Below are positions 1,601 through 62,179 of a stretch of 64,000 nt of DNA, one piece after another. The position numbers and the translations under genes are program-made. The first letter of the stretch is position 1; each line of letters starts with the position of its first letter. The notes beneath the pieces were generated by a model. The model had not been told where the DNA came from. It searched no databases and was given only the letters and a program-made list of their open reading frames with translations. The stretch is from assembly GCF_014647495.1 (NCBI RefSeq), contig NZ_BMPH01000011.1, positions 1-64,000 on the forward strand. Direction: 5' to 3'. This DNA is from Glutamicibacter protophormiae (GTDB lineage: Bacteria > Actinomycetota > Actinomycetes > Actinomycetales > Micrococcaceae).

Positions 1601-2050
1601 AGCAACTCCTTCTACCGAGCCCCTGGCTTCGGCCTCACGACAAACCCTTGCACATCACAGCCAACACAGGGGGAGCGGATTTGCAAGGCGCACCTACCCG
1701 AATCTTACCGGTGCGCTAGGACAACGTGATATTCCCCGACCGTCAAAGAGGCACCGAGAACTCCTGGAGTCTCCGGAGAAGAAAGAGTTCGAGCATGTCC
1801 CGAAAACGCTAGTTCGCCCTTTTGGTCCTCCACGGTATCGGCCCCTAGTTTCGGGAATCCGTTGGCAGCACCATCGCGCCATTCGATCACTCAGCTCGGA
1901 TGGCGCTATTTTTCATCCCGAAAACCACCGTTTTTGACCAGACAACCAAGAACCAGGAATCCCCGGCGTATGACTGTTAGTTTCAATTGGCGGTTTATCA
2001 CCGTTAAAAATGGAGCATCGCACAGCACCACCCACTTTGGTTTTAGATGG
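1601..2050. other. intergenic region, no supported gene
   Basis: About 450 bases upstream of the methyltransferase. Several short overlapping open frames exist on both strands but none resembles a known protein or has a convincing ribosome site. The A+T-rich stretch near 1970-2050 looks like debris from mobile DNA. Confidence 0.4.
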
Positions 2051-2099
2051 TTGAAGGCGGGGCGCTAATTTCCCGGTGGAAATAGTGCCCCGCCTTCAA
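2051..2099 (-). terminator. strong hairpin downstream of the metal ATPase
   Basis: A 13-bp perfect stem (TTGAAGGCGGGGC at 2051-2063 with its complement at 2087-2099) encloses a second small hairpin (ATTTCC/GGAAAT). It lies directly after the minus-strand ATPase stop and probably ends that transcript. No clear U-run follows on the minus strand. Confidence 0.6.
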
Positions 2100-2116
2100 C
2101 GGCAACGAAACCAGCG

Positions 2117-4057
2117 CTAATGCAGGACGTTGCCCGGCTGCTGGGTGAGCTGCTTGCGGTGGATACGGGCAGCACGAAGGCCGTTGGCAATCACGATGAC
2201 TTCTGCGACCTCGTGAACCAGCACTACCGCGGCTAATCCAAGCACTCCGGTAATAGCCAAGGGCAGCAGGACAACGATGATCGCCATTGACAGGACGATG
2301 TTCTGATTCATGATCGCTCGGCCCCGTCGGGCATGGGACAAGGCTTGCGGGATCAGTCTCAAGTCATGGCCGGTGAAGGCTACGTCGGCTGATTCTATGG
2401 CGGCATCGGCACCGGTAGCGCCCATCGCAATCCCCACGGTAGCGCTAGCCAAGGCAGGGGCATCGTTGATCCCGTCACCGATCATCCCTGTAGGAACCTG
2501 CTGCACCGACGAAGCGATTTCACGGGCCTTGTCTTCAGGTCGCAGTTCGGCATGAACGGTGTCTATACCGGCGATTGAAGCCAGCGCGTGGGCAGTACGG
2601 GAGTTATCGCCGGTGAGCATCACCACGTCGATTCCCTGGTTATGCAGGTCTCGAATTGCCTCGGCCGCTTCAGGGCGTAGTTCATCGCGCACGCCGATCA
2701 CGCCAATGACCTGCTCTGCACGGGTGACCATGACGCAGGTTTGCCCGGAGGCCTCCATGGATTCAACAGCGGAAGCAAGCGATCCTGGGGCAATCCATCG
2801 AGGACTGCCGACCCCGACCTGAACACCATCCAGGACGCCGGTAATGCCGTGTCCTGGCTCTTCGTTAACCGCCGCTGCCTCCGGGATCGCGGGTACTGCT
2901 GCGGTGATGGCCGTAGCTAGAGGGTGGGTGCTGTGCTGTTCCAGGGCGGCAGCAACGGCGAGCACCTCTTCGCGAGTCGCATCATCAACGGTCTGGACTT
3001 GCGTGACCACTGGCTGATTGCGTGTGAGTGTTCCAGTTTTATCTACCGCGATGCGGCGCAGGGAACCAAGCCGTTCGAAGGCTGCTCCGCTTTTGATGAT
3101 GACACCGAACTTGCTGGCAGCTCCGATGGCGGAAACAACGGTGACAGGAACGGCGATGGCCATCGCGCAAGGCGAGGCTGCGACCAGCACGATCAGTGCG
3201 CGGGTGATCCAGGTTTCGGGATCGCCGAAGATCGCTCCAAGCACAGCAACCAGTACGGCCAGGACGATGACACCGGGAACCAGCGGGCGGGCAATGCGGT
3301 CAGCGAGCCGTGCCCGTTCGCCACGTTCCGACTGGGCTTGCTCGACCAGGCTCACCAACGTGGTCAGGGAGTTGTCCGTGCCGTTTGCCGTTGCAGTGAC
3401 TACTAGCGCGCCGGATGAATTGATGGAACCAGCAGCAACCTGGTCGCCTACGGTTACTTCCACGGGAATTGATTCCCCCGTGATAGCGGAGGTGTCCAAG
3501 CTGCTTGATCCTTGGCTGACCACGCCATCGGTTGCCAAGCGTTCACCAGGCTTCACGCGCAGGGCATCGCCAATCTTGATCTCTGCTGCACTGACCACGA
3601 CCGGTGCGTCGTCACGGATGACGGTGGCCGTTTCCGGGACGAGCTTCAACAAAGAGCGCAGGCCCGAGCGTGCCCTGTCCATGGCTTTGTCTTCCAGGGC
3701 TTCGGCAATGGAATACAGGAATGCCAGGGCTGCGGCTTCTTCGATATATCCGAGGATGACCGCACCGGTGGCGCTGATGGTCATCAGCAGCCCAATGCCG
3801 AGTTTCCGTTTCGTGAACAGGTTTCGCAGGGCGCCGGGCACAAAGGTAAAAGCGCCCAGCAGCAGGCCGATCCAAAACAGCACCAAGGCCACGATGGCGG
3901 CGCTTTCGCCGTGGGTGCTCCATTCAAGGACGAGCCCAGCGAGGAAGAAAACGCCTGAGGCTATGGGGACGAGCACGTGCCAATCCCGCCACCAGGGCAG
4001 TTCCTCTTCGAATTCTTCGGTGGGTTCCGGTGAATCGCAACCGCAGGCGGAACTCAT
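2117..4057 (-). CDS. heavy-metal P1B-type ATPase (CtpG/CmtA-like cadmium/zinc exporter)
   Basis: Membrane pump of 646 aa expected to export divalent soft metals using ATP. Visible motifs in order are the actuator ITGES, the transmembrane metal site SPC (in AASPCAMAIAVP) instead of CPC, the phosphorylation loop DKTGTLTR, the P1B-specific HP dipeptide (STHPLATA) and the hinge GDGINDAPAL. There is no N-terminal CxxC domain, only a short acidic tail with ACGCD. The C-terminal helix has HEVAEVIVIANGLR where P1B-4 pumps carry HEG. The start overlaps the repressor stop by ATGA (4054-4057), so the two are translationally coupled. Pairing with a CmtR-like sensor suggests Cd, Pb or Zn; the exact ion is inferred. 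Confidence 0.88.
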   Translation of the reverse strand: MSSACGCDSPEPTEEFEEELPWWRDWHVLVPIASGVFFLAGLVLEWSTHGESAAIVALVLFWIGLLLGAFTFVPGALRNLFTKRKLGIGLLMTISATGAVILGYIEEAAALAFLYSIAEALEDKAMDRARSGLRSLLKLVPETATVIRDDAPVVVSAAEIKIGDALRVKPGERLATDGVVSQGSSSLDTSAITGESIPVEVTVGDQVAAGSINSSGALVVTATANGTDNSLTTLVSLVEQAQSERGERARLADRIARPLVPGVIVLAVLVAVLGAIFGDPETWITRALIVLVAASPCAMAIAVPVTVVSAIGAASKFGVIIKSGAAFERLGSLRRIAVDKTGTLTRNQPVVTQVQTVDDATREEVLAVAAALEQHSTHPLATAITAAVPAIPEAAAVNEEPGHGITGVLDGVQVGVGSPRWIAPGSLASAVESMEASGQTCVMVTRAEQVIGVIGVRDELRPEAAEAIRDLHNQGIDVVMLTGDNSRTAHALASIAGIDTVHAELRPEDKAREIASSVQQVPTGMIGDGINDAPALASATVGIAMGATGADAAIESADVAFTGHDLRLIPQALSHARRGRAIMNQNIVLSMAIIVVLLPLAITGVLGLAAVVLVHEVAEVIVIANGLRAARIHRKQLTQQPGNVLH

Positions 4058-51504: not shown

Positions 51505-52092
51505 CTAGGAATTTCCCTTCGCGGGGTTCGGCAGCATGCCGTCAAGCATGATGCGGGTCAGCCGCGGGCCAATGCCGGGGGCGGCGCTGGCGAAGGCGCG
51601 CGGCAGCGGCCGCGTCGCCAAGCCGATGCCGGTGATCAGCTCATGGCCGGTGAGGTCCTGGCGGACCAGATTAGCGGCTTGGGCCAATTCCAGCGCCCGG
51701 CTCACCGCCTGCGCGGCGGCCCGCTGCGGCTGCAGGATCCGGTCGCTGATGGTCTGCGGGAGCTGCAGGCTCAGCGATTCGCTGAGCGCACCGAGGTTCA
51801 GCTCAATCAGTGCATCCAAAAATTCCTGCCAAGCCCGGGGCTCGCCCCGCGACAAGCCCTCGGCGGCGTGCTCGGCTGCCTGCTGGACATCATGGAGCAT
51901 GTCCAAGGTGACTTCCTCGACCAGTTCGGGGCGTGCGGCAAAGTTCCTGTACAGCGTGCCGATGCCGACGTGGCTTGCCTCGGCAATGGATTCCATGGCG
52001 ACATTGGCGCCGTGGGTTGCAAAGAGTTCACGAGACGTGCGGAGAATTTGCTTACGTCGTCGTAGTGCATCTGCGCGCATGCGTTTCCCCAC
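51505..52092 (-). CDS. TetR family regulator
   Basis: A 195-aa regulator with the helix-turn-helix ATHGANVAMESIAEASHVGIGTLYRNFA and an alpha-helical ligand domain. It is divergent from the alpha-mannosidase gene (440 bp apart) and convergent with the MFS gene. The target is unknown. Confidence 0.87.
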   Translation of the reverse strand: MGKRMRADALRRRKQILRTSRELFATHGANVAMESIAEASHVGIGTLYRNFAARPELVEEVTLDMLHDVQQAAEHAAEGLSRGEPRAWQEFLDALIELNLGALSESLSLQLPQTISDRILQPQRAAAQAVSRALELAQAANLVRQDLTGHELITGIGLATRPLPRAFASAAPGIGPRLTRIMLDGMLPNPAKGNS

Positions 52093-52534
52093 CTTTCACA
52101 GTTTTCGGGGTGTCCGGGGCAACCTTCCTGCCCCGTAACGATCTAACGGTAGTCGTTGAGGGAAGATCTGACGAAGTGGAAGCGTTCATTCCATTCTGCA
52201 AGGCATCCATCGTAGTTCCCGACCTTGAGTATCCGCTGGAATTCTGCCGAATCCACGCTGGAAATGCGCTTGCTTCGCCGGCCCCACTTCGAACTTTCCG
52301 GACCGCAGAAAGTTCCCGGGCTCCTCGCCAACGAGCCGTGCACCGGCGGCCCAGGGCCATGGACCGGGTGCGGCTCGCACGCCGAGGGAGGCCCGGGCTC
52401 CCCCTCCGCCACCTGCCGCAGGTTGTCGGCACGGACCCGTGGCAGCTGGGAGTCGCACCAGCTCGCGTCCCGGTTTTTTCGGTAGTGTGGCCAGTGAGCT
52501 GTACCGAAGCAGGTCCCATCCTTGAAAGGTCTTC
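52093..52534. other. intergenic between tetR and GH38 gene
   Basis: About 440 bases with promoters for both divergent genes. Short open frames on both strands lack support. Confidence 0.4.
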
Positions 52535-55500
52535 ATGCACGACGACACTTCGCTGACCATCGGACGAGTCAAGCGCGTACTAGACGAACGAATTCGTCCG
52601 GCCATCTACTCGGAGAGCGTTCCGCTGCAGGTGTCGTGGCACGAACTGCCCGGTGAGCCGGTGGCCCCGGCCGAAGGCTTGGCTTTGGACTACACCCCGG
52701 TCGCGGTCGGCACCCCGTGGGGCGCCGCCTGGGGCACCACCTGGTTCCACCTGCAGGGCGAGGTTCCTGCCGCCTGGGCCGGGCGCCGGGTCGAGGCAGT
52801 CATCGATTTGGGCTTCGATATCAACATGACAGGCTTCCAGTGCGAGGGACTGATCTACCGACCGGACGGCATCACCGTCAAGGCGCTGAACCCGCGCAAC
52901 CAGTGGGTGCCGGTCGCCGAGTCCGCCGCCGGCGGCGAGGTGGTCGACCTGCACATGGAAGCGGCCTCCAACCCGGTGCTGCTGGACTACCATCCGTTCC
53001 TGCCCACCGAGCAGGGCGACATCCTCACGTCCTCTTCGCGCCGGCTGTACACGCTGCGCCGCCTGGAGTTGGCGGTCTTCGAACCGGTGGTGCACGATTT
53101 GGCGCTGGATCTGGAGGTGCTCTTCGACCTGCAGGAGCAGCTGGCCGACGGCCCGCGCCGCTTCCAGATCCTGCAAGCCATGGACAACGCCCTGGACGTG
53201 CTGGACCTGCAGCGCATCACCGAAACCGCGCAGGACGCCCGCGACCAGCTGGCCGCGGTGCTCGCCGCCCCGGCCGAGCACAGCGCCCACAAGATCTCGG
53301 CCATCGGGCACTCGCATATCGATTCGGCCTGGCTGTGGCCGCTGCGCGAAACCATCCGCAAGGTCTCGCGCACCTGCTCCTCGATGGTGGAGCTGCTGGA
53401 GACCGAGGATGAATTCCTCTACGGCATGTCCAGCGCCCAGCAGTACAAGTGGCTGAAGACCCACCGGCCCGAGGTCTGGGACCGGGTCAAGCGCCAGGTG
53501 GCCGAGGGCCGCTTCCTGCCGCTGGGCGGCATGTGGGTGGAATCCGACACCGTCATGCCTTCGGGCGAATCCCTGGTGCGCCAGTTCCTCTACGGACAGA
53601 ACTTCTTCCGCAAGGAATTCGGCATCACTTCCAAGGGCGTCTGGCTGCCCGACTCCTTTGGCTACTCCCCCGCGCTGCCGCAGCTGATGCGCCGCGCAGG
53701 CTTCGAGTGGTTTTTCACCCAGAAGATCTCTTGGAACCAGCAGAACAAGTTCCCGCACCACACCTTCGACTGGGAGGGCATCGACGGGTCGCGCATGTTC
53801 AGCCACTTCCCGTCCATGGACACCTACAATTCCCAGCTCTCGGGCGAGGAAGTGGCCAAGGCCGCCCGCCAGTTCCGCGAAGCGCGGGTCACGAACAATT
53901 CAATCGCCCCGGTGGGCTGGGGCGACGGCGGCGGCGGCACCACCCGGGAGATGACCGGCAAGGCTAAGCGCCTGGCCAACCTGGAAGGCAGCGCCACGGT
54001 GGCCTGGGAGCATCCCAATGACTTCTTCGACCGGGCCAAGGCCGAGCTGCCCAACCCGCCGGTGTGGGTGGGCGAGCTCTACCTGGAGCTGCACCGCGCC
54101 ACCCTGACCAGCCAGCACCAGACCAAGCAGGGCAACCGCCGCACCGAGCAGCTGCTGGTCGAAGCCGAGCTGTGGGCATCCACCGCGGCCGTCTACGCCG
54201 GCGAGCCCTACCCGTACGAGCAGCTCGACGAGCTGTGGGAGACGGTGCTGCTGCACCAGTTCCACGACATCCTGCCCGGCACCTCGATCGCCTGGGTGCA
54301 CCGCGAAGTGGTGGCCCGCTACGCCGAGGTCATCACGCAGGCGCAGGCCTTGATCGCCCGCGCCCAGCAGGTGCTGTCCGGGACCGGCGGCCTGCAGCTG
54401 GAGTTCAACGCGGCCGCCTACACCCGCCATGGGGTGGCCTTCGGCGCGGCCCGCGAGCTGGAGCCCGCCACTGCGCAGCTGGTGCGCGCCGAGGCACTGG
54501 ACGGCGGCTACGTGCTGGGCAACGAGCTGGTGCGCGTGGTCATCAACTCAGACGGCCTGATCACCTCCGCCGTGGACCTGGCCACCGGCCGCGAAACCAT
54601 TGCCGAGGGCAAGGAAGCCAACCTGCTGCAACTGCACCAGGACTTCCCGAACATGTGGGACGCCTGGGACGTGGACAAGTACTACCGCAACCAGGTCACC
54701 GACCTGCGCGCGGCGGACAGCATCCAGCTCTCCGAATCCGGAGGCACTGCCACGGTGACGGTGACCCGCAGCTTCTCCAACTCGACGCTGGTCCAGGAAC
54801 TGTCGCTGGCTCCCGGGGAGCGCACCGTGCAGATCTCCCAGAGCACCGACTGGCACGAGGCGGAGAAGTTCCTCAAGGTCGCCTTCCCGCTGGATATCCG
54901 CGCGGAGCAGACCATCGCCGAAACCCAGTTCGGCTACCACCAGCGCGTCACCCACGTGAACACCAGCTGGGAAGCGGCGAAGTTCGAAACCTCGATGCAC
55001 CGCTTCGTGCTGGCGCAGGAGCCGGGCTTCGGCGCCGCGCTGGTCAACGACTCGATCTACGGCTTCGACGTCACCCGCGACGCCGAGGACGCCCGGGTCA
55101 CCACCACCGTGCGCCTCTCGCTGCTGCGCGCCCCGCGCTTCCCGGATCCGCAGACCGACCAGGGGCTGCAGACCCACCGCTACGGGCTGGTCATCGGCGC
55201 AGACATCGCCAGCGCCACCGAAGCCGGCGCGCTGCTGAACAGCGCACAGACCGTGCGCTCCGGCGCCCGCGAGGTCGAGCCGCTGGCGGCGATCTCCGGC
55301 GAGGGCCTGGTGGTCTCCAGCGTGAAGCTGGCCGCCGACCGCTCCGGCGACCTGGTGGTGCGCGTGTACGAGTCGCTGGGACGCCGCGCCTCCGGCACGC
55401 TGGGCATCAACCGCCCGGTGGCCTCGGCCGCCACGGCCAGCCTGCTGGAGGATCCGTTGGAGCCGGTGGAAGTGAACAAAAATTCTGTTCAGCTCAAGCT

Positions 55501-55543
55501 CGGGGCTTTCGAGGTGCGCACCCTGCGCTTCACGCTGCGGTAG
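52535..55543 (+). CDS. GH38 alpha-mannosidase
   Basis: A 1002-aa cytosolic glycosidase. The catalytic zinc site has HSHIDSAWLWPLRET, and the second Asp/nucleophile region is GGMWVESDTVMPSGESLVRQ with LPDSFGYSPALP. The N-terminal ~260 residues are the usual beta-rich extension, and the C-terminal half is the beta-sandwich region ending LKLGAFEVRTLRFTLR. It removes alpha-mannose from oligosaccharides. Its last 97 bases are repeated at 57833-57929. Confidence 0.93.
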   Translation: MHDDTSLTIGRVKRVLDERIRPAIYSESVPLQVSWHELPGEPVAPAEGLALDYTPVAVGTPWGAAWGTTWFHLQGEVPAAWAGRRVEAVIDLGFDINMTGFQCEGLIYRPDGITVKALNPRNQWVPVAESAAGGEVVDLHMEAASNPVLLDYHPFLPTEQGDILTSSSRRLYTLRRLELAVFEPVVHDLALDLEVLFDLQEQLADGPRRFQILQAMDNALDVLDLQRITETAQDARDQLAAVLAAPAEHSAHKISAIGHSHIDSAWLWPLRETIRKVSRTCSSMVELLETEDEFLYGMSSAQQYKWLKTHRPEVWDRVKRQVAEGRFLPLGGMWVESDTVMPSGESLVRQFLYGQNFFRKEFGITSKGVWLPDSFGYSPALPQLMRRAGFEWFFTQKISWNQQNKFPHHTFDWEGIDGSRMFSHFPSMDTYNSQLSGEEVAKAARQFREARVTNNSIAPVGWGDGGGGTTREMTGKAKRLANLEGSATVAWEHPNDFFDRAKAELPNPPVWVGELYLELHRATLTSQHQTKQGNRRTEQLLVEAELWASTAAVYAGEPYPYEQLDELWETVLLHQFHDILPGTSIAWVHREVVARYAEVITQAQALIARAQQVLSGTGGLQLEFNAAAYTRHGVAFGAARELEPATAQLVRAEALDGGYVLGNELVRVVINSDGLITSAVDLATGRETIAEGKEANLLQLHQDFPNMWDAWDVDKYYRNQVTDLRAADSIQLSESGGTATVTVTRSFSNSTLVQELSLAPGERTVQISQSTDWHEAEKFLKVAFPLDIRAEQTIAETQFGYHQRVTHVNTSWEAAKFETSMHRFVLAQEPGFGAALVNDSIYGFDVTRDAEDARVTTTVRLSLLRAPRFPDPQTDQGLQTHRYGLVIGADIASATEAGALLNSAQTVRSGAREVEPLAAISGEGLVVSSVKLAADRSGDLVVRVYESLGRRASGTLGINRPVASAATASLLEDPLEPVEVNKNSVQLKLGAFEVRTLRFTLR
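55447..55543 (+). repeat. mannosidase tail, copy A
   Basis: The last 97 nt of the GH38 gene. They align without gaps to 57833-57929 with mostly scattered or synonymous changes, which become denser at the very end. Confidence 0.85.
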
Positions 55544-55568
55544 GCTTGCCGCGTCCCGGGGCCCGGCA

Positions 55569-55602
55569 TCACCAGGGCGAAGGTTCGTAGTCCTTCAAGA
55601 AA
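55569..55602 (-). pseudogene. 3' tail of a second SDR allele
   Basis: On the minus strand this encodes FLKDYEPSPW then TGA, identical in protein to the end of the SDR gene at 58039, with synonymous base differences. It is joined directly to a ComM-like fragment. Confidence 0.65.
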
Positions 55603-55823
55603 CAGCACCCCGTGGTGGGCTCGGGTGATCGCCCCCGGCAGCATCTTCCGGGTGCCGCTGCCGATCAGCACGGTCAGCGACGCGGTGTGGTGCGGGGCAA
55701 TGAACTCCGGTTCGCGGCGGAGGGCCGTAATCGGCTCCTGCGCACCGTAGGTGATCGAATGCACCGCGGTCGCCTCCAGCGCCTGCAGGTGGTTCAGCGG
55801 CGGCAGGATCTCTGGCAGCTAGC
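55595..55823 (-). pseudogene. fragment of ComM/YifB (Mg-chelatase-like ATPase)
   Basis: About 75 codons matching the YifB/ComM core: LPEILPPLNHLQALEATAVHS, then FIAPHHTASLTVLIGSG and PGAITRAHHGVLFL. An in-frame stop precedes it, and it ends in SDR tail sequence. The full protein is about 500 aa, so this is debris. Confidence 0.65.
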
Positions 55824-56133
55824 TGGCCGGCAGGGTACTGCCCGCGCCGGGAGGTCAGTGCTCTGTGATGGTTATCGGCTCCTCTTCGAGAGGAAAACCT
55901 ACCTCTCACCACCGGAATCACGGGGGTACAGACCGAGACACCACCATTGCATCAAATCGTGACGCGGCTTCAATCAATCGTTTTTGAGGGAGTCGGCAAG
56001 AGCAGGTGATTTTGGTTCCCCGGCGTATCTGGAGTCCGGCCGGTCCCGCTCAGAACGGTCTCGATTGCCGGGTTCGGGAGGACAGAACCGTGCCCCCGGT
56101 AGGTCATCCGATGTTTAAGGCGTGGGGGGAGAG
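55824..56133. other. non-coding stretch in the island
   Basis: About 310 bases between the ComM fragment and the 454-aa gene; no gene or clear terminator is seen. Confidence 0.4.
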
Positions 56134-57498
56134 TCAGCGCGCCTTGGCGAAGGCCACGTAATGTCGGTCGAGGAAGCCCGGCACGCTGCGTCGCTGCGCA
56201 GCCGCTTGTATGAAGGCGGCGATCACGCCGGAGGCCGCCCCGGCCGCTACCGCGCTGGGCGGCCCGCCGATCGCCGCACCGCCGGCCCCACCGAGTCCAC
56301 CTGCGATGAAGCTGATCGTGTTCTGCCCACCCCAGACCCTCGATTTCTTCGCTTCACGGCGCAACGACTCACGGGCATCCGCGAGCTTCTCCTCGACGCC
56401 GGTCTGGATGGTGCGCGAGTCGATGCCTGCGCGCCGGTTCCGGTCGGCGTAGTCCAGCGCCTCGGCCAGGTCCTTGCGCCACGTCGCGAGCGAGTCGCTC
56501 GATCGACGAATCGTCACTAGGTCTGCAGGGCTGAGGACGTCAATGTTCGGAACCTCAGTGCGAGCAACCTCGTGCATTCTGAGCTGCTCGGCAGGGTCGG
56601 GAGCGCCGATGAACAGCAGACGGCCCATCAGCGGCGTGGCGCACAGCACGTCAGAGGATCCACCGAGCATCCGGATGAGGGCTAGCGTCGACGCGGTCCC
56701 CGCGATCGCATTCTCGACGATGTTCCTCGGGTTAAGGATCCGTACTACATCGATGAACGTCTCGGCCAGAGCGGCGTCGCCCTCGTCAACGGCGCGCTGC
56801 ACGTAGGAGAGGTCGGGTGCGCGATTGCCGCCGCGTATCTCTTTCCACAGCGTCTGCAGGGCGGGTGACAGGCCGGAGACGAACTCGACCTCGAACTCGT
56901 CCCACGCATCAGCGACCGTGTACGGTGAGGCATCGGCGTCGAGCGTGGTCAGGATGCTGTCTCCCAGCTCGCCGGCGGCCCCCAGCTCATCGCCACCGGT
57001 GTAGAAGACGTTGACAACATCATGGTCAAGGAGCTGCGCGATCTCGGACAGCGATGCAGCCGCCGCGGATATGCTCGCGCGGGTCACCTCGCGGAGCTCC
57101 CGGTGCTGGCTCAGGTGCATCTCGGCGGCATGACTCAGAGGGTCCTCGATCGCGAGCCCGTGGCTGTACAGGAGCGCTCGCATAATCCCCGTCGAGAACT
57201 CCCCGGTCCCGCTCGCCCGGGGGTCGGTCGCCGCGGAGAGCCGGATGCCCGACGGCGCATACCCGCTCGCTGGCGACTCGTTGTTGAGATGGTCGAAGAA
57301 CAACGACGAGCGCAGAGGGATCAGCGGCCAGATCTCGGTGACAGGGCGTTTCGGCAGCGCTCCGGACCTCGGCACGGAGAGAATCGTCTCCGCCAGCGCA
57401 TCGACCCGGTCCGGTGAAAGGGCGTCGATCGCCGACGTCAGGTCGGGGCCCGCCGATTCGCCAAGCGCCTCGCGCACAGCATCGAATGAACTCTGCAT
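56134..57498 (-). CDS. unrecognised 454-aa island protein
   Basis: The frame is open to 57813, but I choose ATG 57498 (MQSSFDAVREALG), which is preceded at 6 nt by TATACT, a -10 hexamer typical of leaderless actinobacterial genes. The protein is mainly helical and acidic in the middle. Near the C-terminus (residues ~395-440) a Gly/Ala-rich hydrophobic hairpin (FIAGGLGGAGGAAIGGPPS and AVAAGAASGVIAAFIQAA) could insert in a membrane; a charged helix with RESLRREAKKSR precedes it. No known domain was recognised. It is the only intact gene in an island of gene fragments, beside a truncated XRE regulator. A defence or toxin role is a guess. Confidence 0.7.
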   Translation of the reverse strand: MQSSFDAVREALGESAGPDLTSAIDALSPDRVDALAETILSVPRSGALPKRPVTEIWPLIPLRSSLFFDHLNNESPASGYAPSGIRLSAATDPRASGTGEFSTGIMRALLYSHGLAIEDPLSHAAEMHLSQHRELREVTRASISAAAASLSEIAQLLDHDVVNVFYTGGDELGAAGELGDSILTTLDADASPYTVADAWDEFEVEFVSGLSPALQTLWKEIRGGNRAPDLSYVQRAVDEGDAALAETFIDVVRILNPRNIVENAIAGTASTLALIRMLGGSSDVLCATPLMGRLLFIGAPDPAEQLRMHEVARTEVPNIDVLSPADLVTIRRSSDSLATWRKDLAEALDYADRNRRAGIDSRTIQTGVEEKLADARESLRREAKKSRVWGGQNTISFIAGGLGGAGGAAIGGPPSAVAAGAASGVIAAFIQAAAQRRSVPGFLDRHYVAFAKAR

Positions 57499-57659
57499 GC
57501 GTCCAGTATAGGGTTCCGACAACGACGAGGAAGTCCCGTCTTGACAGGCGCGTCCTCCCATCTCTGACCATCTCTGACCGCGTACAACGATGAACACAGG
57601 TCTGCGCTGCCGAAGTGCGACAATGAAATAGCGCGAAAGAGCCGGAATGCACAAGGGCG

Positions 57660-57838
57660 AATCCCGCGTTAAATCACTCGCGGAATATTTACTTTCGACA
57701 GAGCTGAGAAGCATCAGCGAGTCGACGCCCAACTGCCCCGCGAGCACGTCCACAGAATCAAGGGTGAGGTTCCGCTCTCCGCGCTCGGTGCCGGCCAGAT
57801 AGCGGGGACTCACTTCGAGGCTTTCGACGAGTGGAGGA
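57660..57838 (-). pseudogene. truncated XRE-family regulator
   Basis: The minus strand encodes the second half of a helix-turn-helix: SLEVSPRYLAGTERGERN then LTLDSVDVLAGQLGVDSLMLL. The first helices are lost at the junction with the mannosidase repeat (57833). It is in the same frame as the 454-aa gene but without family features after about 57660. Confidence 0.65.
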
Positions 57839-57929
57839 TCCGCTGGAGCCGGTGGAAGTGAACGAAAATTCTGTTCAGCTCAAGCTCGGGGCCTTCGAGG
57901 TGCGCACGATGCGCTTTACCCTTGCCTGA
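57833..57929 (+). repeat. mannosidase tail, copy B
   Basis: Repeats the GH38 gene end (encoding VEDPLEPVEVNENSVQLK onward) and stops with TGA. It is not attached to a mannosidase gene and marks the right edge of the island. Confidence 0.85.
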
Positions 57930-57974
57930 TCCACCAGCCGCGCCTAACCCAACAGCTAGGTCCCATTAATCCGG

Positions 57975-58014
57975 TGATGGCGGGGCAGTTCTTCGCGAAC
58001 TGCTCCCGCCATCA
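57975..58014 (-). terminator. hairpin after the SDR gene
   Basis: TGATGGCGGGGCAGTTC pairs with GAACTGCTCCCGCCATCA (one bulge), following the minus-strand SDR stop. Confidence 0.65.
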
Positions 58015-58038
58015 TTGCGTTACCCCCAGGCCGGCGCC

Positions 58039-59553
58039 TCACCACGGGGACGGTTCGTAGTCCTTCAGGAAGCAGCCGTAGAGGTCGATGCCGCGTTCGC
58101 CGTCGACAATGGGCTGGTAGACGCGGGCGGCTCCGTCGATCAAATCCAGCGGGGCGTGCCAGCCCTCGGCGACCATGCGCACCTTGGAATCATGCGGACG
58201 CTCGTCGGTGATCCAGCCGGTGTCCACCGCGGACATCAGGATCCGGTCGGTGGCCAGCATCTCCTCCGCGCTGGTGCGCGTGAGCATGTTCAGCGACGCC
58301 TTGGCCATGTTGGTGTGCGGGTGTCCGGCACCCTTGTAGCGGCGGGAGAACTGCCCCTCCATGGCGGAGACGTTCACGATGTACTTGCGCCGCGCCTCAG
58401 AGGCGGCCAGCGCCGGGCGCAGCCGGGAGGCCAGCAGGAACGGCGCGGTGACGTTGCACAGCTGCACTTCGAGCATTTCCAGCGCGTCCACGTCGCCCAG
58501 GATCTGCGTCCAGGAATTCTCCGTGACCACATCCGGCACCAGCCCGCCGGCGTCGATGGCGGTGCCCGCGGCGATGCGCTCCAGCGAGGCGGAGCCGGCG
58601 GTCATGGCCAGGTCCGCGAGCTGCTGGGCGTCGTAGCCGCCCACCGTGCTCGGGGCCAGCAGCGCCGAGTCCTCCAGCCGGAAGGCGCTGGCCAGCGCAC
58701 GGGGGTGCTCGGCCGGCGGGTTGGCCTCGCCCCACAACTCCGGCCCGCCCTGCCCGAAGGCCAGCTCCCCGGCCAGCGGCTGCTGCTCGGATTCAATCAG
58801 GTGCTGGTAGGAGTTGGCGGTGCGGCGCACGGTCTGCGCGGCGTTGTTGATCAGGATGTCCAGCGGGCCTTCGGCGGCGACGCGGTCGGCCAGCGAGATC
58901 ACCTGGGCTGGGTCGCGCAGGTCGATGCCCACGATCCGCAGCCGGTGCAGCCAGTCGGCGCTGTCTTCAAGCGCCGCGAAGCGCCGGGCCGCGTCCTTGG
59001 GGAAGCGGGTGGTGATGGTGGTGTGGGCGCCGTCGCGCAGCAGGCGCAGCGCAATGTGCATGCCGATCTTCGCCCGACCGCCAGTGAGCAGCGCCCGCTT
59101 GCCGGACAGGTCGGCACGGGCGTCGCGGCGTTCGCGGCCGGCGGCGGCGCAGTCCGGGCACAGGTAGTGGTGGAAGGCGTCCACCGTGGTGTAGCGCTGC
59201 TTGCAGATGTAGCAGCCGCGCGGCTTGCGGAATTCTCCGGCGCTGTCCCCCTGGGTCGGGGTGCTCAGATCAAGGCCCAGGGTCTCGTCGTCCAGCCGCT
59301 GCGGCGAGCCGGTGGCGGTCCGCTCGATCAGCGCCCGGTCCGCGGCGCTGATTTCGGCGCGCTTCTGCGACTTGCGGTGGCGTTTGGCGGCCTTGAACAT
59401 GTTGCTGGTCGCACGGCGCACGGCGACGTGCCGCCCGTCCTCGGGGTCCAGCGTGTGCACCACGGACAGGACCTTCAATGCGGTGGCCAGTTCCTCGGCG
59501 GTGAATGGTTCGGTGTCGCCGGCCGATGCGGGCGATGAAGTATGTTCGGTCAT
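58039..59553 (-). CDS. SDR family oxidoreductase with N-terminal zinc ribbon
   Basis: A 504-aa protein, about twice a normal SDR. Residues ~1-110 are a polar extension (RRATSNMFKAAKRHRKSQKR). A zinc ribbon with CYICKQRY and YLCPDCAAAGRERR follows, then the SDR domain: LLTGGRAKIGMHIALRLL and ILINNAAQTV. The Tyr-Lys region is weak (YKGAGHPHTNMAKASLN). It may act on a nucleic-acid- or protein-bound substrate, but this is not known. It is 32 nt after purN on the same strand. Confidence 0.8.
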   Translation of the reverse strand: MTEHTSSPASAGDTEPFTAEELATALKVLSVVHTLDPEDGRHVAVRRATSNMFKAAKRHRKSQKRAEISAADRALIERTATGSPQRLDDETLGLDLSTPTQGDSAGEFRKPRGCYICKQRYTTVDAFHHYLCPDCAAAGRERRDARADLSGKRALLTGGRAKIGMHIALRLLRDGAHTTITTRFPKDAARRFAALEDSADWLHRLRIVGIDLRDPAQVISLADRVAAEGPLDILINNAAQTVRRTANSYQHLIESEQQPLAGELAFGQGGPELWGEANPPAEHPRALASAFRLEDSALLAPSTVGGYDAQQLADLAMTAGSASLERIAAGTAIDAGGLVPDVVTENSWTQILGDVDALEMLEVQLCNVTAPFLLASRLRPALAASEARRKYIVNVSAMEGQFSRRYKGAGHPHTNMAKASLNMLTRTSAEEMLATDRILMSAVDTGWITDERPHDSKVRMVAEGWHAPLDLIDGAARVYQPIVDGERGIDLYGCFLKDYEPSPW

Positions 59554-59585
59554 CTCAGTCTCGATGCTGCTGGGCCGGTGGCCCG

Positions 59586-60152
59586 CTAGTTGGCTGCCAG
59601 GTCCGCCAGGGTGGCGATGAGCAGGCGGCGTTCGACCACCTTGATGCGTTCGTGCAGGGTTTCCTCGGTGTCCGTCTCTTCGATGGCCACGGCCTCCTGG
59701 CGCAGGATCGGGCCGGTGTCCACGCCGGCATCCGCGATGTGCACGGTGCAGCCGGTGACCTTCACTCCGTAGGCCAACGCGTCGCGCACGCCATGGGCGC
59801 CCGGGAAGGACGGCAGCAGCGCCGGGTGGGTGTTGATGTAGGTGCCGTCGAAGGCGTTGATGAATTCCTCGCCGACGATGCGCATGAACCCGGAGGAGAC
59901 CACGTAATCAGGAGCGTAGGACAGGCATTTCTCGGTCAGCGCGTGGTTCCAATCGCCGCGGTCGGCGAAGTCCTTGAAGTTCACCACGAAGGTCTCGATG
60001 CCCGCCTCCGCCGAACGCTGCACCCCGTAGGTGCCGTGCTTGTCCGCACCCACCGCCGCGATTTCGACATTCGGCAGGTCGCCGGCCGCGACCGCGTCGA
60101 TGACTGCCTGGAGATTCGAACCGGTGCCGGACACCAAAACCACAATACGCAT
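59586..60152 (-). CDS. purN: phosphoribosylglycinamide formyltransferase
   Basis: About 188 aa from the ATG at 60152, which has GGAAG just upstream. It transfers formyl from 10-formyl-THF to GAR in purine synthesis. Motifs are VLVSGTGSNLQAVID, SSGFMRIVG, NTHPALLPSFPGAHGVRDALAYG and GCTVHIADAGVDTGPI. The usual partner purH is at 47462, separated by about 10 kb. Confidence 0.94.
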   Translation of the reverse strand: MRIVVLVSGTGSNLQAVIDAVAAGDLPNVEIAAVGADKHGTYGVQRSAEAGIETFVVNFKDFADRGDWNHALTEKCLSYAPDYVVSSGFMRIVGEEFINAFDGTYINTHPALLPSFPGAHGVRDALAYGVKVTGCTVHIADAGVDTGPILRQEAVAIEETDTEETLHERIKVVERRLLIATLADLAAN

Positions 60153-60325
60153 AGCTTCCATTCTACGGTTGGCCGGCGGCGCCCGCCGACCTTGGCTTCC
60201 GGCTCCAGCGGTCGTAATTCGTCACATGCAGCTCAGCCCCGCCGCCGCCCGGCGCCCGGGCCTACACTGGAACCCCGGAGACGCGGCGGCGCCGGGCCGC
60301 CACGCCGGTCGACCAAGGAGCGGAC

Positions 60326-60847
60326 ATGAGCCAGATCATCCCGGACGGCAAGGACTGGACCGTCGTCCTGCGCGAAACCTGCCCCGAATGCGGCGTCGAT
60401 GTGCGCGGCATGTCCGTGCAGGAGACGGCCGCGCGGCTGCCCGGGGTCGTGGCGCGCTATGAAAAGGTGCTCGAGCGTCCCGGGGCCGCGACCCGCCGCA
60501 ACGCCGCCCGCTGGAGCGACCAGGAATACGTGGTGCACGTGGCCGAGATGCTGGCGGTCATGGAGGGCCGCCTGGATTTGATGCTGGAGCAAACCGATCC
60601 GGGCTTCCCCAATTGGGACCAGGACGCCGCGGCGGAGCAGGGCAAGTACAACGCGCTGGGCGCCGGACAGGCGGCGCAGAAGCTGCGCACGGCGGCCGAA
60701 GCCTATGCGGCCAAGCTGGAAAGCATCAGCCCGGAGAAGTATTCCCGCAAGGGCATACGCTCAAATGGTGCCACGTTCACGGTGGAAACGCTGAACCAGT
60801 ACGCCTGGCATGATATGGTGCACCATCTGTGGGACCTGGACGCCTGA
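60326..60847 (+). CDS. DinB-like/maleylpyruvate isomerase-type protein
   Basis: A 173-aa helical-bundle protein with histidines placed for a metal site (EYVVHVAEMLAV near the start of the second helix and YAWHDMVHHLWDL at the end). Members are mycothiol-dependent enzymes or have unknown roles. The start is ATG 60326, with AAGGAG upstream. It converges with the DUF6350-like gene. Confidence 0.8.
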   Translation: MSQIIPDGKDWTVVLRETCPECGVDVRGMSVQETAARLPGVVARYEKVLERPGAATRRNAARWSDQEYVVHVAEMLAVMEGRLDLMLEQTDPGFPNWDQDAAAEQGKYNALGAGQAAQKLRTAAEAYAAKLESISPEKYSRKGIRSNGATFTVETLNQYAWHDMVHHLWDLDA

Positions 60848-60865
60848 GCGGGCGCGCCGTCCGCG

Positions 60866-62179
60866 CTAGCCTTCGAGCACCGGATCCGTTTCGAACAGCG
60901 GGGCGATCAGGTAGCCGATGGCCGTGCCCAGGCCGATCTGCAGGGCCAGCGCCCCGGCGGTCACCCAGGCATGCGGACCCAGCTCGGTCAGCCGGCCGAT
61001 GGCCAGCGAGCCGGAGGACAACCAGGATCCGCCCAGCGAGAGCAGCCCGGCCACGACACCGGTGAACACGGCCAGGCAGGCCGTGGAAGCGCCCAGGGCC
61101 AGCGCGTTGAACGGGATGCGGCGGGCAAACCAGTCTTCCAGGTGGTTCTCCCCCACCCGCAGGAAGTACCAGCCGGCCAGGATGCCGGCGAGCACCGGGA
61201 TCAGCAGGTAGAGCCACTGGTTGGTCGGCTCCCCGGAAGGCAGCGCTGCCAGCATCGGAATCGAGGGCAGCGGGCCCACGGTGGTTTCGAGCGTGGACAG
61301 CGTGCTGCCGGCACCCAGGCTGAACCCGCCGCCGCTGATCCAGGACAGCACCCAGAACACCGCGTTGGGGATCAGCGCCAGCTGCAGCAGGGTCAGCGCG
61401 GCGGAGCCGATGGGCCCGGGGCGCAGTTCCTGGTAGACGTTGGCCACCTCGGTCCAGTGCAGTCCCAGGGTGATGGTCAGCAGGATGCCGGAGATGCCCA
61501 CGGCGGCCACGTAGCCCATGAACCCCGAGACGACCACATGCCAGACGTAGGAACCGGCCCAGCGTCGGTGCGGGGAGATGCTGTGCAGGTAGGCGGCGGT
61601 GTCCATGCCGAACAGCCGCCCCCAGGATCCCGCTTCGCGGCGCGCGCCGATGAGCAGGCCCAGCGAGGCGATCACCAGCGGGATGAAGGTGGCGGCCAGG
61701 ATGTTGACCCGACCGTAGTCGTTGGCCACCAGGAAGCCCACGCCGGTGCCGATGGCCCCGTAGGCCACCACGGCGCCCAGCAGTCCCTGCCACAGCTGGT
61801 CGGTGTAGGAAGCGCGGGCGATGCGCCGTCCGGCGCGCAGGCAGAAGAGGAAGGGCAGCAGGCTCAGCCCCAGCGGCATCAGCGTCAGCCAGCCGGTCAT
61901 CGAGCTGGGGTCGGTGTCCGGCCCCACGTTGAAGACCTCGATGGGCACGCCGTGGATGAGCAGCCAGACGAACCCGGCGAACTGCAAGATCACCTCGAAC
62001 GAGTCCTCCAGGAAGCCGCCGCTGAAGTAGACAGCGACCAGCGGCAGCGCAATCAGCGCTAGGCAGAACACGACCGATTGCAGCATTTCGAAAACCCCCT
62101 GCAGGGCAAGGGGCATCGGCCAGCCGTTGCGCAGGCGCAACATCACGGCCTTCATGGGTTTCTTTTCGCGGCTCATCAT
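60866..62179 (-). CDS. DUF6350-like polytopic membrane protein
   Basis: About 437 aa if started at 62179 (MMSREKK), with an open frame back to 62236. About ten hydrophobic segments are seen. Position next to purN matches DUF6350 genes of actinobacteria, some of which have been called cell-division or PerM-like proteins; the function is unknown. Confidence 0.75.
   Translation of the reverse strand: MMSREKKPMKAVMLRLRNGWPMPLALQGVFEMLQSVVFCLALIALPLVAVYFSGGFLEDSFEVILQFAGFVWLLIHGVPIEVFNVGPDTDPSSMTGWLTLMPLGLSLLPFLFCLRAGRRIARASYTDQLWQGLLGAVVAYGAIGTGVGFLVANDYGRVNILAATFIPLVIASLGLLIGARREAGSWGRLFGMDTAAYLHSISPHRRWAGSYVWHVVVSGFMGYVAAVGISGILLTITLGLHWTEVANVYQELRPGPIGSAALTLLQLALIPNAVFWVLSWISGGGFSLGAGSTLSTLETTVGPLPSIPMLAALPSGEPTNQWLYLLIPVLAGILAGWYFLRVGENHLEDWFARRIPFNALALGASTACLAVFTGVVAGLLSLGGSWLSSGSLAIGRLTELGPHAWVTAGALALQIGLGTAIGYLIAPLFETDPVLEG

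Follow-up and report, generated by a model that had tools for sequence, protein, structure and literature searches.

In the 64,000-nucleotide stretch of Glutamicibacter protophormiae DNA analysed here (hereafter the window; NCBI RefSeq assembly GCF_014647495.1, contig NZ_BMPH01000011.1, positions 1 to 64,000 of the forward strand), a GH38 alpha-mannosidase gene and a convergent SDR gene are separated by an island of 2.4 kb, which is bounded by two copies of the mannosidase 3' end. Read from the left, the island contains the tail of an SDR gene, a ComM fragment, a spacer, a gene of 454 amino acids (aa), a second spacer of non-coding-like composition and the remnant of an XRE-type regulator gene. 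An earlier prediction for this DNA (the original prediction) had named a diverged recurrence of the mannosidase 3' end, an SDR tail identical in protein to the resident SDR end, a ComM/YifB fragment, an intact unknown gene and a beheaded XRE gene, and all of these were borne out by the alignments and profile searches described below. The features are as follows, in positions of the window.

52535 to 55543, plus strand: GH38 alpha-mannosidase gene, open over 1002 aa, in which Pfam recognises the N, middle and C domains of GH38; it ends in the left copy of the repeat
55446 to 55543, plus strand: mannosidase 3' end, left copy; this allele is probably not native and differs from both the right copy and G009 at 9 of 12 variable sites
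55569 to 55606, minus strand: SDR gene end, comprising the last 11 codons and the stop (CFLKDYEPSPW-stop), 25 nucleotides (nt) past the mannosidase stop
55595 to 55850, minus strand: ComM/YifB pseudogene fragment, Pfam Mg_chelatase at E 1.1e-12 (frame 55489-55764), 80% identical to the resident comM
55851 to 56133, no strand: spacer, with no match in 57 other genomes
56134 to 57498, minus strand: intact orphan gene coding for 454 aa; around residues 408-434 its product has a hydrophobic, glycine-rich stretch
57499 to 57697, no strand: non-coding-like spacer, guanine-cytosine (GC) content by codon position 0.53/0.53/0.58
57698 to 57831, minus strand: remnant of an XRE-type regulator gene that lacks its 5' end; the inner bound is approximate
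57831 to 57832, no strand: right junction, illegitimate, 0-1 nt shared
57832 to 57929, plus strand: right copy of the mannosidase 3' end, a bare gene end, probably native and displaced
57972 to 58017, no strand: strong hairpin, a likely terminator between the convergent genes (z -5.55 for 57924-58036; bounds from the predicted fold)
58039 to 59553, minus strand: resident SDR gene, open over 504 aa, assigned from a profile match and relatives

By aligning the two copies of the mannosidase 3' end, 91 nt at 55446-55536 were found to match 57832-57922 at 92% identity, in the same orientation and with a start-to-start distance of 2386 nt; the copies thus form a direct repeat. A chance match is ruled out because the same gene end lies at both places. 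The genus was searched in 18 genomes including the source genome, with one genome per species. The mannosidase and SDR genes are adjacent in 15 of the 17 other genomes; in G005 the mannosidase is present and no SDR match lies within the 20 kb taken, and G003 gave short or comM matches only. In the nearest relative in the set (G009, stretch L034), bases 1-1992 correspond to window positions 53546-55537 at 95% identity, and bases 1901-4001 correspond to 57832-59934 at 92%. Since these two matches overlap on a single gene end, G009 has one copy, lacks the island and represents the empty site; relative to it, no resident DNA has been lost and 91 nt have been doubled. The comparison of this junction in related genomes, which the original prediction had called for, thus gave an empty site in G009 and other cargo in other relatives (see below), and the arrangement is not common to all of them. 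An assembly error or a contaminant join might be suspected, as the assembly is a draft in 38 contigs. On the other hand, the island is one unbroken match that occurs once in the assembly, the listed contamination is 0, and the mannosidase frame is intact across the left join; we therefore consider such an artefact improbable.

The two copies differ in their nearness to G009. Over 92 bases, the right copy is identical to G009 at 89 positions and the left copy at 85, and the remaining 14 relatives reach at most 61/92 in an ungapped match to either copy. In the 95 nt up to the mannosidase stop, 12 sites differ among the left copy, the right copy and G009: the right copy agrees with G009 at 9 (three of which form one codon), the left copy agrees with G009 at 2, and the two copies agree with each other at 1. 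At few of these sites are the outgroup states informative on ancestry. Because it is nearer to G009 than the left copy, the right copy looks native. The spacers between the gene end and the SDR gene agree with the left copy as the imported one: the right spacer has 109 nt with the strong hairpin, that of G009 has 107 nt with the same arms, and the left spacer has 25 nt without such a hairpin (z 0.85 for the left counterpart, 55540-55610). The mannosidase-SDR gap is 18 nt in G007, G014, G004 and G016. Judged from these sequence comparisons, it is likely, though not proved, that the right copy is native and that the left copy is another allele of different ancestry. The opposite polarity, in which the left side would be native and an import from a G009-like lineage would have brought in the right side (mannosidase end, hairpin and SDR gene), draws on the facts that the left copy belongs to the whole gene and that no upstream crossover is visible; however, the right flank is no closer to G009 than the left flank (92% and 95%, respectively, over the matches given above), and we give this polarity only a small chance.

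The material next to the left copy has a composite character. At the DNA level, the SDR tail is identical to the resident SDR end at 33/38 positions and to G009 at 32/38; its protein identity is uninformative on origin, because the C-terminal KDYEPSPW is constant in 14 of the 15 relatives with the SDR gene. The adjoining ComM fragment, which we take to extend from the Walker A to the Walker B motif, has its resident counterpart at G000:C4:57383-57638. It contains an in-frame TAG and shows GAGST where GAGKT is expected, and it is therefore considered a pseudogene. Over 256 bases, the fragment differs from the resident comM at 50 positions and from the G009 comM at 52, and the latter two differ from each other at 19. 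In a tree with 9 outgroup sequences (3 of 12 were dropped because of an alignment gap), the fragment falls outside the pair of resident and G009 comM, with a log-likelihood better by 4.5, a bootstrap of 93 and an approximately unbiased (AU) test value of 0.908; the alternative grouping of the fragment with the resident comM has an AU value of 0.094, which is above the 0.05 rejection level. This points to a foreign or older source of the fragment. The 12 nt at 55595-55606 are compatible with both ComM and the SDR tail, which marks a join made at a short stretch of similarity, and this join, together with the decay of ComM, suggests that the incoming piece was probably a patchwork beforehand.

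At the right edge, the break is abrupt. Homology between the XRE remnant and the related genes of G083 and G031, which belong to another genus, runs up to 57831 and then ends (38/56 and 37/56 base matches before 57832, 4/19 and 5/19 after it), and so the 5' end of the gene is missing. The XRE label is based on a PADLOC Control_protein match of the fragment (E 3.3e-4) and on the G083 and G031 genes, to which the remnant is 71% identical over 42 residues, with 82% and 78% identity, respectively, over 83 nt of DNA; Pfam found no helix-turn-helix in the remnant, and its G083 homologue is HTH_3 in Pfam. The frame of the remnant is open, with no stop, as far as the orphan gene, a point overlooked in the original prediction. 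The G083 relative (L094 1021-4248) adjoins a gene with HsdM domains and a gene that resembles HsdS by eye, a neighbourhood hinting that the remnant may derive from a restriction-modification setting; no restriction-modification gene was recognised within the island. Matches of 34 nt to the XRE region in G447 and G432 were set aside, as neither gave an XRE protein match. The earlier view that the DNA came from a related strain fits the left mannosidase end and ComM, which look like near kin, but finds no such support in the orphan gene, which has no accepted relative, or in the XRE remnant, for which the relatives found are of another genus.

A one-sided entry may account for these features, in which the left end would have joined by homology and the right end illegitimately, with the resident DNA displaced and not deleted. 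We favour this mechanism tentatively, at somewhat less than an even chance. In the proposed sequence, 2.4 kb of mostly foreign linear DNA with two unlike ends would have been taken up and entered the convergent mannosidase-SDR junction. Its left end would have consisted of a mannosidase 3' end and, behind it, an SDR tail that was already fused to the ComM pseudogene fragment. This mannosidase end would have paired in register with the resident gene, leaving a mannosidase that is whole but has a different last stretch. The other end of the incoming DNA, broken inside the XRE gene, would have been attached to the resident mannosidase at a point 98 nt short of the gene end, presumably by end joining and with no homology involved. 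Consequently, the resident gene end, the hairpin and the SDR gene would have been shifted to the right, resulting in a partial duplication. The left join is in register and the mannosidase frame is kept across it, and homology therefore most likely guided this join. The claim of recombination at the mannosidase-SDR junction is probably right for the left side, but the right junction is not explained by two-sided homologous recombination. The genome encodes Ku (PF02735, E 3.6e-48) and a Competence-domain protein (PF03772, E 2.0e-47), which permit, without showing, end joining and uptake. Such an event would probably have had little effect on the cell: both the mannosidase and the SDR gene remain open, one gene would have been gained, and the mannosidase would have lost the hairpin behind it. 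As an aside on this last point, the hairpin found behind the right copy is missing after the mannosidase at 55543-55569, and transcripts may therefore read antisense into the island.

Several observations weigh against this one-sided entry. In the rooted likelihood test of the repeat (93 nt), the grouping of the left and right copies has an AU value of 0.65, right with G009 0.45 and left with G009 0.31; with the SDR tail added, the respective values are 0.88, 0.22 and 0.13. The best rooted tree thus joins the two copies, with a difference from the other groupings that is not significant, and the idea of two alleles from different ancestry, which is borne out as far as the divergence of the copies and the nearness of the right one to G009 are concerned, meets here a tree that does not reject the copies as sisters. 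Among the states confined to the left copy, several are seldom or never met in the relatives and may be due to drift, and the mismatch profile against G009 shows no clear step upstream of the repeat. Among 395 genomes of the family, only the window itself matches far to both sides of the joint between the SDR tail and ComM, and no donor was found. The Competence domain is common, being present in 10 of 14 control genomes. Finally, homology-facilitated illegitimate recombination, which is known from Streptococcus pneumoniae, Acinetobacter baylyi and Pseudomonas stutzeri, usually deletes resident DNA (PMC3240628), and none is missing here relative to G009.

The tree bears in particular on a local duplication around inserted foreign DNA, in which the resident gene end would have been copied, the hairpin and the SDR body lost, and drift would have followed. 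The same orientation of the copies, the decayed ComM piece and the best tree fit such an event. However, there are 9 left-only sites against 2 right-only and 1 G009-only sites, which would mean that change was several times faster at the end of the working gene than in the free copy, and the SDR tail differs both from the right SDR end and from G009. The branch lengths are likewise uneven: the left copy has a branch of 0.11-0.14 substitutions per site, against approximately 0.02 in the free right copy and a value near 0 in G009; this long left branch speaks for an imported left copy and is not predicted by a local duplication after the split. We hold this duplication to be of low probability.

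The main competitor of one-sided entry is a small circle that carried the island and a mannosidase 3' end and integrated by one crossover in the repeat (Campbell type). Flanking direct repeats of the gene end are the product expected from a single crossover, and in E. coli, a study of 60 clones assigned all except 4 to a duplication type that was read as the product of single crossovers (sizes of 109-950 bp; PMC3240628). With a G009-like parent, however, the G009-like state should swap from the left to the right copy, and no swap is seen past the first 11 nt; the crossover would have to fall within these 11 nt, because the left copy departs from G009 as early as the first variable site, 55457. 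Moreover, no replication or mobilisation gene occurs among the library matches of the frames scanned. A single crossover is therefore judged unlikely, though by no means negligible. An integrative island or a transposon was also considered and rejected: the window contains no tRNA, no integrase or transposase occurs among the library matches of the frames scanned, and no exact inverted repeat of at least 8 nt was found between 55430-55640 and 57680-57850. Rfam gave no match at gathering score in 52000-60500, and a promoter and terminator pattern scan of 55400-58100 found none, although the fold of 57924-58036 gives the strong hairpin.

When one-sided entry is compared with known systems, partial likenesses emerge. 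As in homology-facilitated illegitimate recombination, one end is homologous and the other illegitimate, and the gain of foreign DNA, which we infer to be an import here, is on the kilobase scale (PMC3240628); junction homology, which the right join of the island lacks, was also missing from 3 of 4 such clones in E. coli (PMC3240628). Unlike in that process, the island involves no resident loss, a gene part is doubled, and the usual 3-10 nt of junction homology is missing (PMC3240628). Because the usual loss of resident DNA is missing, the island is not classed under this process. In the immunity arrays of the Vibrio cholerae type VI secretion system, entry by one homologous anchor has likewise been proposed, the former 3' part being retained further downstream (PMC5361080), but the piece retained here is a bare gene end without a likely product. 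As in hotspots without mobile elements between recombining core genes, no integrase is seen and cargo varies between the same genes in the genus; in contrast to those hotspots, the variation here matches that of neighbouring convergent junctions (PMC5635113). Small variable segments of bacterial genomes are similarly short, are not known mobile elements and have been ascribed to illegitimate recombination (PMC2884548), but they occur within species and are mostly <500 bp, as told in PMC3240628. In general, the island looks like a small DNA acquisition that is ordinary in kind, and it is a readable footprint of small DNA without a recognisable mobile element entering a chromosome; which end used homology can be told because both gene ends persist.

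The one intact gene within the island is the orphan gene. Its GC content by codon position (0.68/0.52/0.81) is coding-like, with a third-position value of 0.81 against 0.91 in both the mannosidase and the SDR gene, and the C-terminal glycine-rich stretch of the protein may touch the membrane, as suggested by hydropathy. In 395 genomes of the family, 396 of the order (the sets overlap) and 11 of the genus of the XRE relatives, the window is the only match at E 0.001. No relative was found in plasmids, phages, viral contigs or two genome-contig scans, which require an exact short peptide match. A search of the phylum (386 genomes, E up to 1) gave 37 matches in 35 other genomes, one of which passes 0.001; the match in G792 (E 1.5e-4, 28%) has two internal stops and overlaps a minus-strand open reading frame of 210 aa, and it was not accepted. 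Profile matches are weak (best Pfam E 0.021, for a larger frame; PHROGs 0.04), neither PADLOC nor NCBIfam gave a match, and the Protein Data Bank gave a single match at E 8.9. AlphaFold on the single sequence reached a mean pLDDT of 42.4, which is too low for a structure search. The gene thus appears, at the level of sequence, to have no accepted relative in the searches made. Two features ahead of the gene were seen by eye only: TATACT lies 9 nt before its ATG, and a tandem repeat, CATCTCTGAC, lies upstream at 57558-57580 and could be an operator. As a long shot, the gene might found a new protein family, possibly anti-phage or membrane-acting, that was once paired with the control-protein-like XRE regulator and was spread, without a mobile element, by one-sided recombination into permissive convergent junctions.

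The mannosidase-SDR junction had also been proposed as a cargo hotspot. Its gap exceeds 600 bp in 6 of 15 relatives, and different cargo is found at the same junction in the genus. Five of these six (G008, G015, G006, G010 and G002; stretches L035, L036, L037, L038 and L040) have a homologous cassette, from which a Lipoprotein_15 protein was identified in G010, and in G008 a sigma factor together with a zf-HC2 protein; the five genomes are patchily related. In G017, about 8 kb lie at this junction, with an HpaB-family hydroxylase gene (L039 3769-5238), and the present island is a third kind of cargo. As a control, the eight other junctions of ten genes between 49230 and 63840 (~15 kb) were compared by raw genome counts, with kinship ignored. 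Gaps of >600 bp occur in 4/12 and 8/16 cases at the two other convergent junctions. For the six junctions between divergent or co-directional genes the count is 4/89, one case being an artefact: the 724-nt SDR-purN gap of G012 is the product of a partial alignment. The junction does vary in the genus, but to an extent comparable with that of the two other convergent junctions; since five of the six long gaps carry one homologous cassette and the neighbouring convergent junctions vary similarly, the hotspot claim is weak, and the junction seems permissive like the other convergent junctions here and not special. This implies that apparent hotspot junctions need comparison with neighbouring junctions before being so named. 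At the convergent junction between the 173-aa and 456-aa genes (60847-60866; also L106 and L110), where the count of 8/16 was obtained, the gap reaches 3.7 kb in G007 and 6.5 kb in G013.

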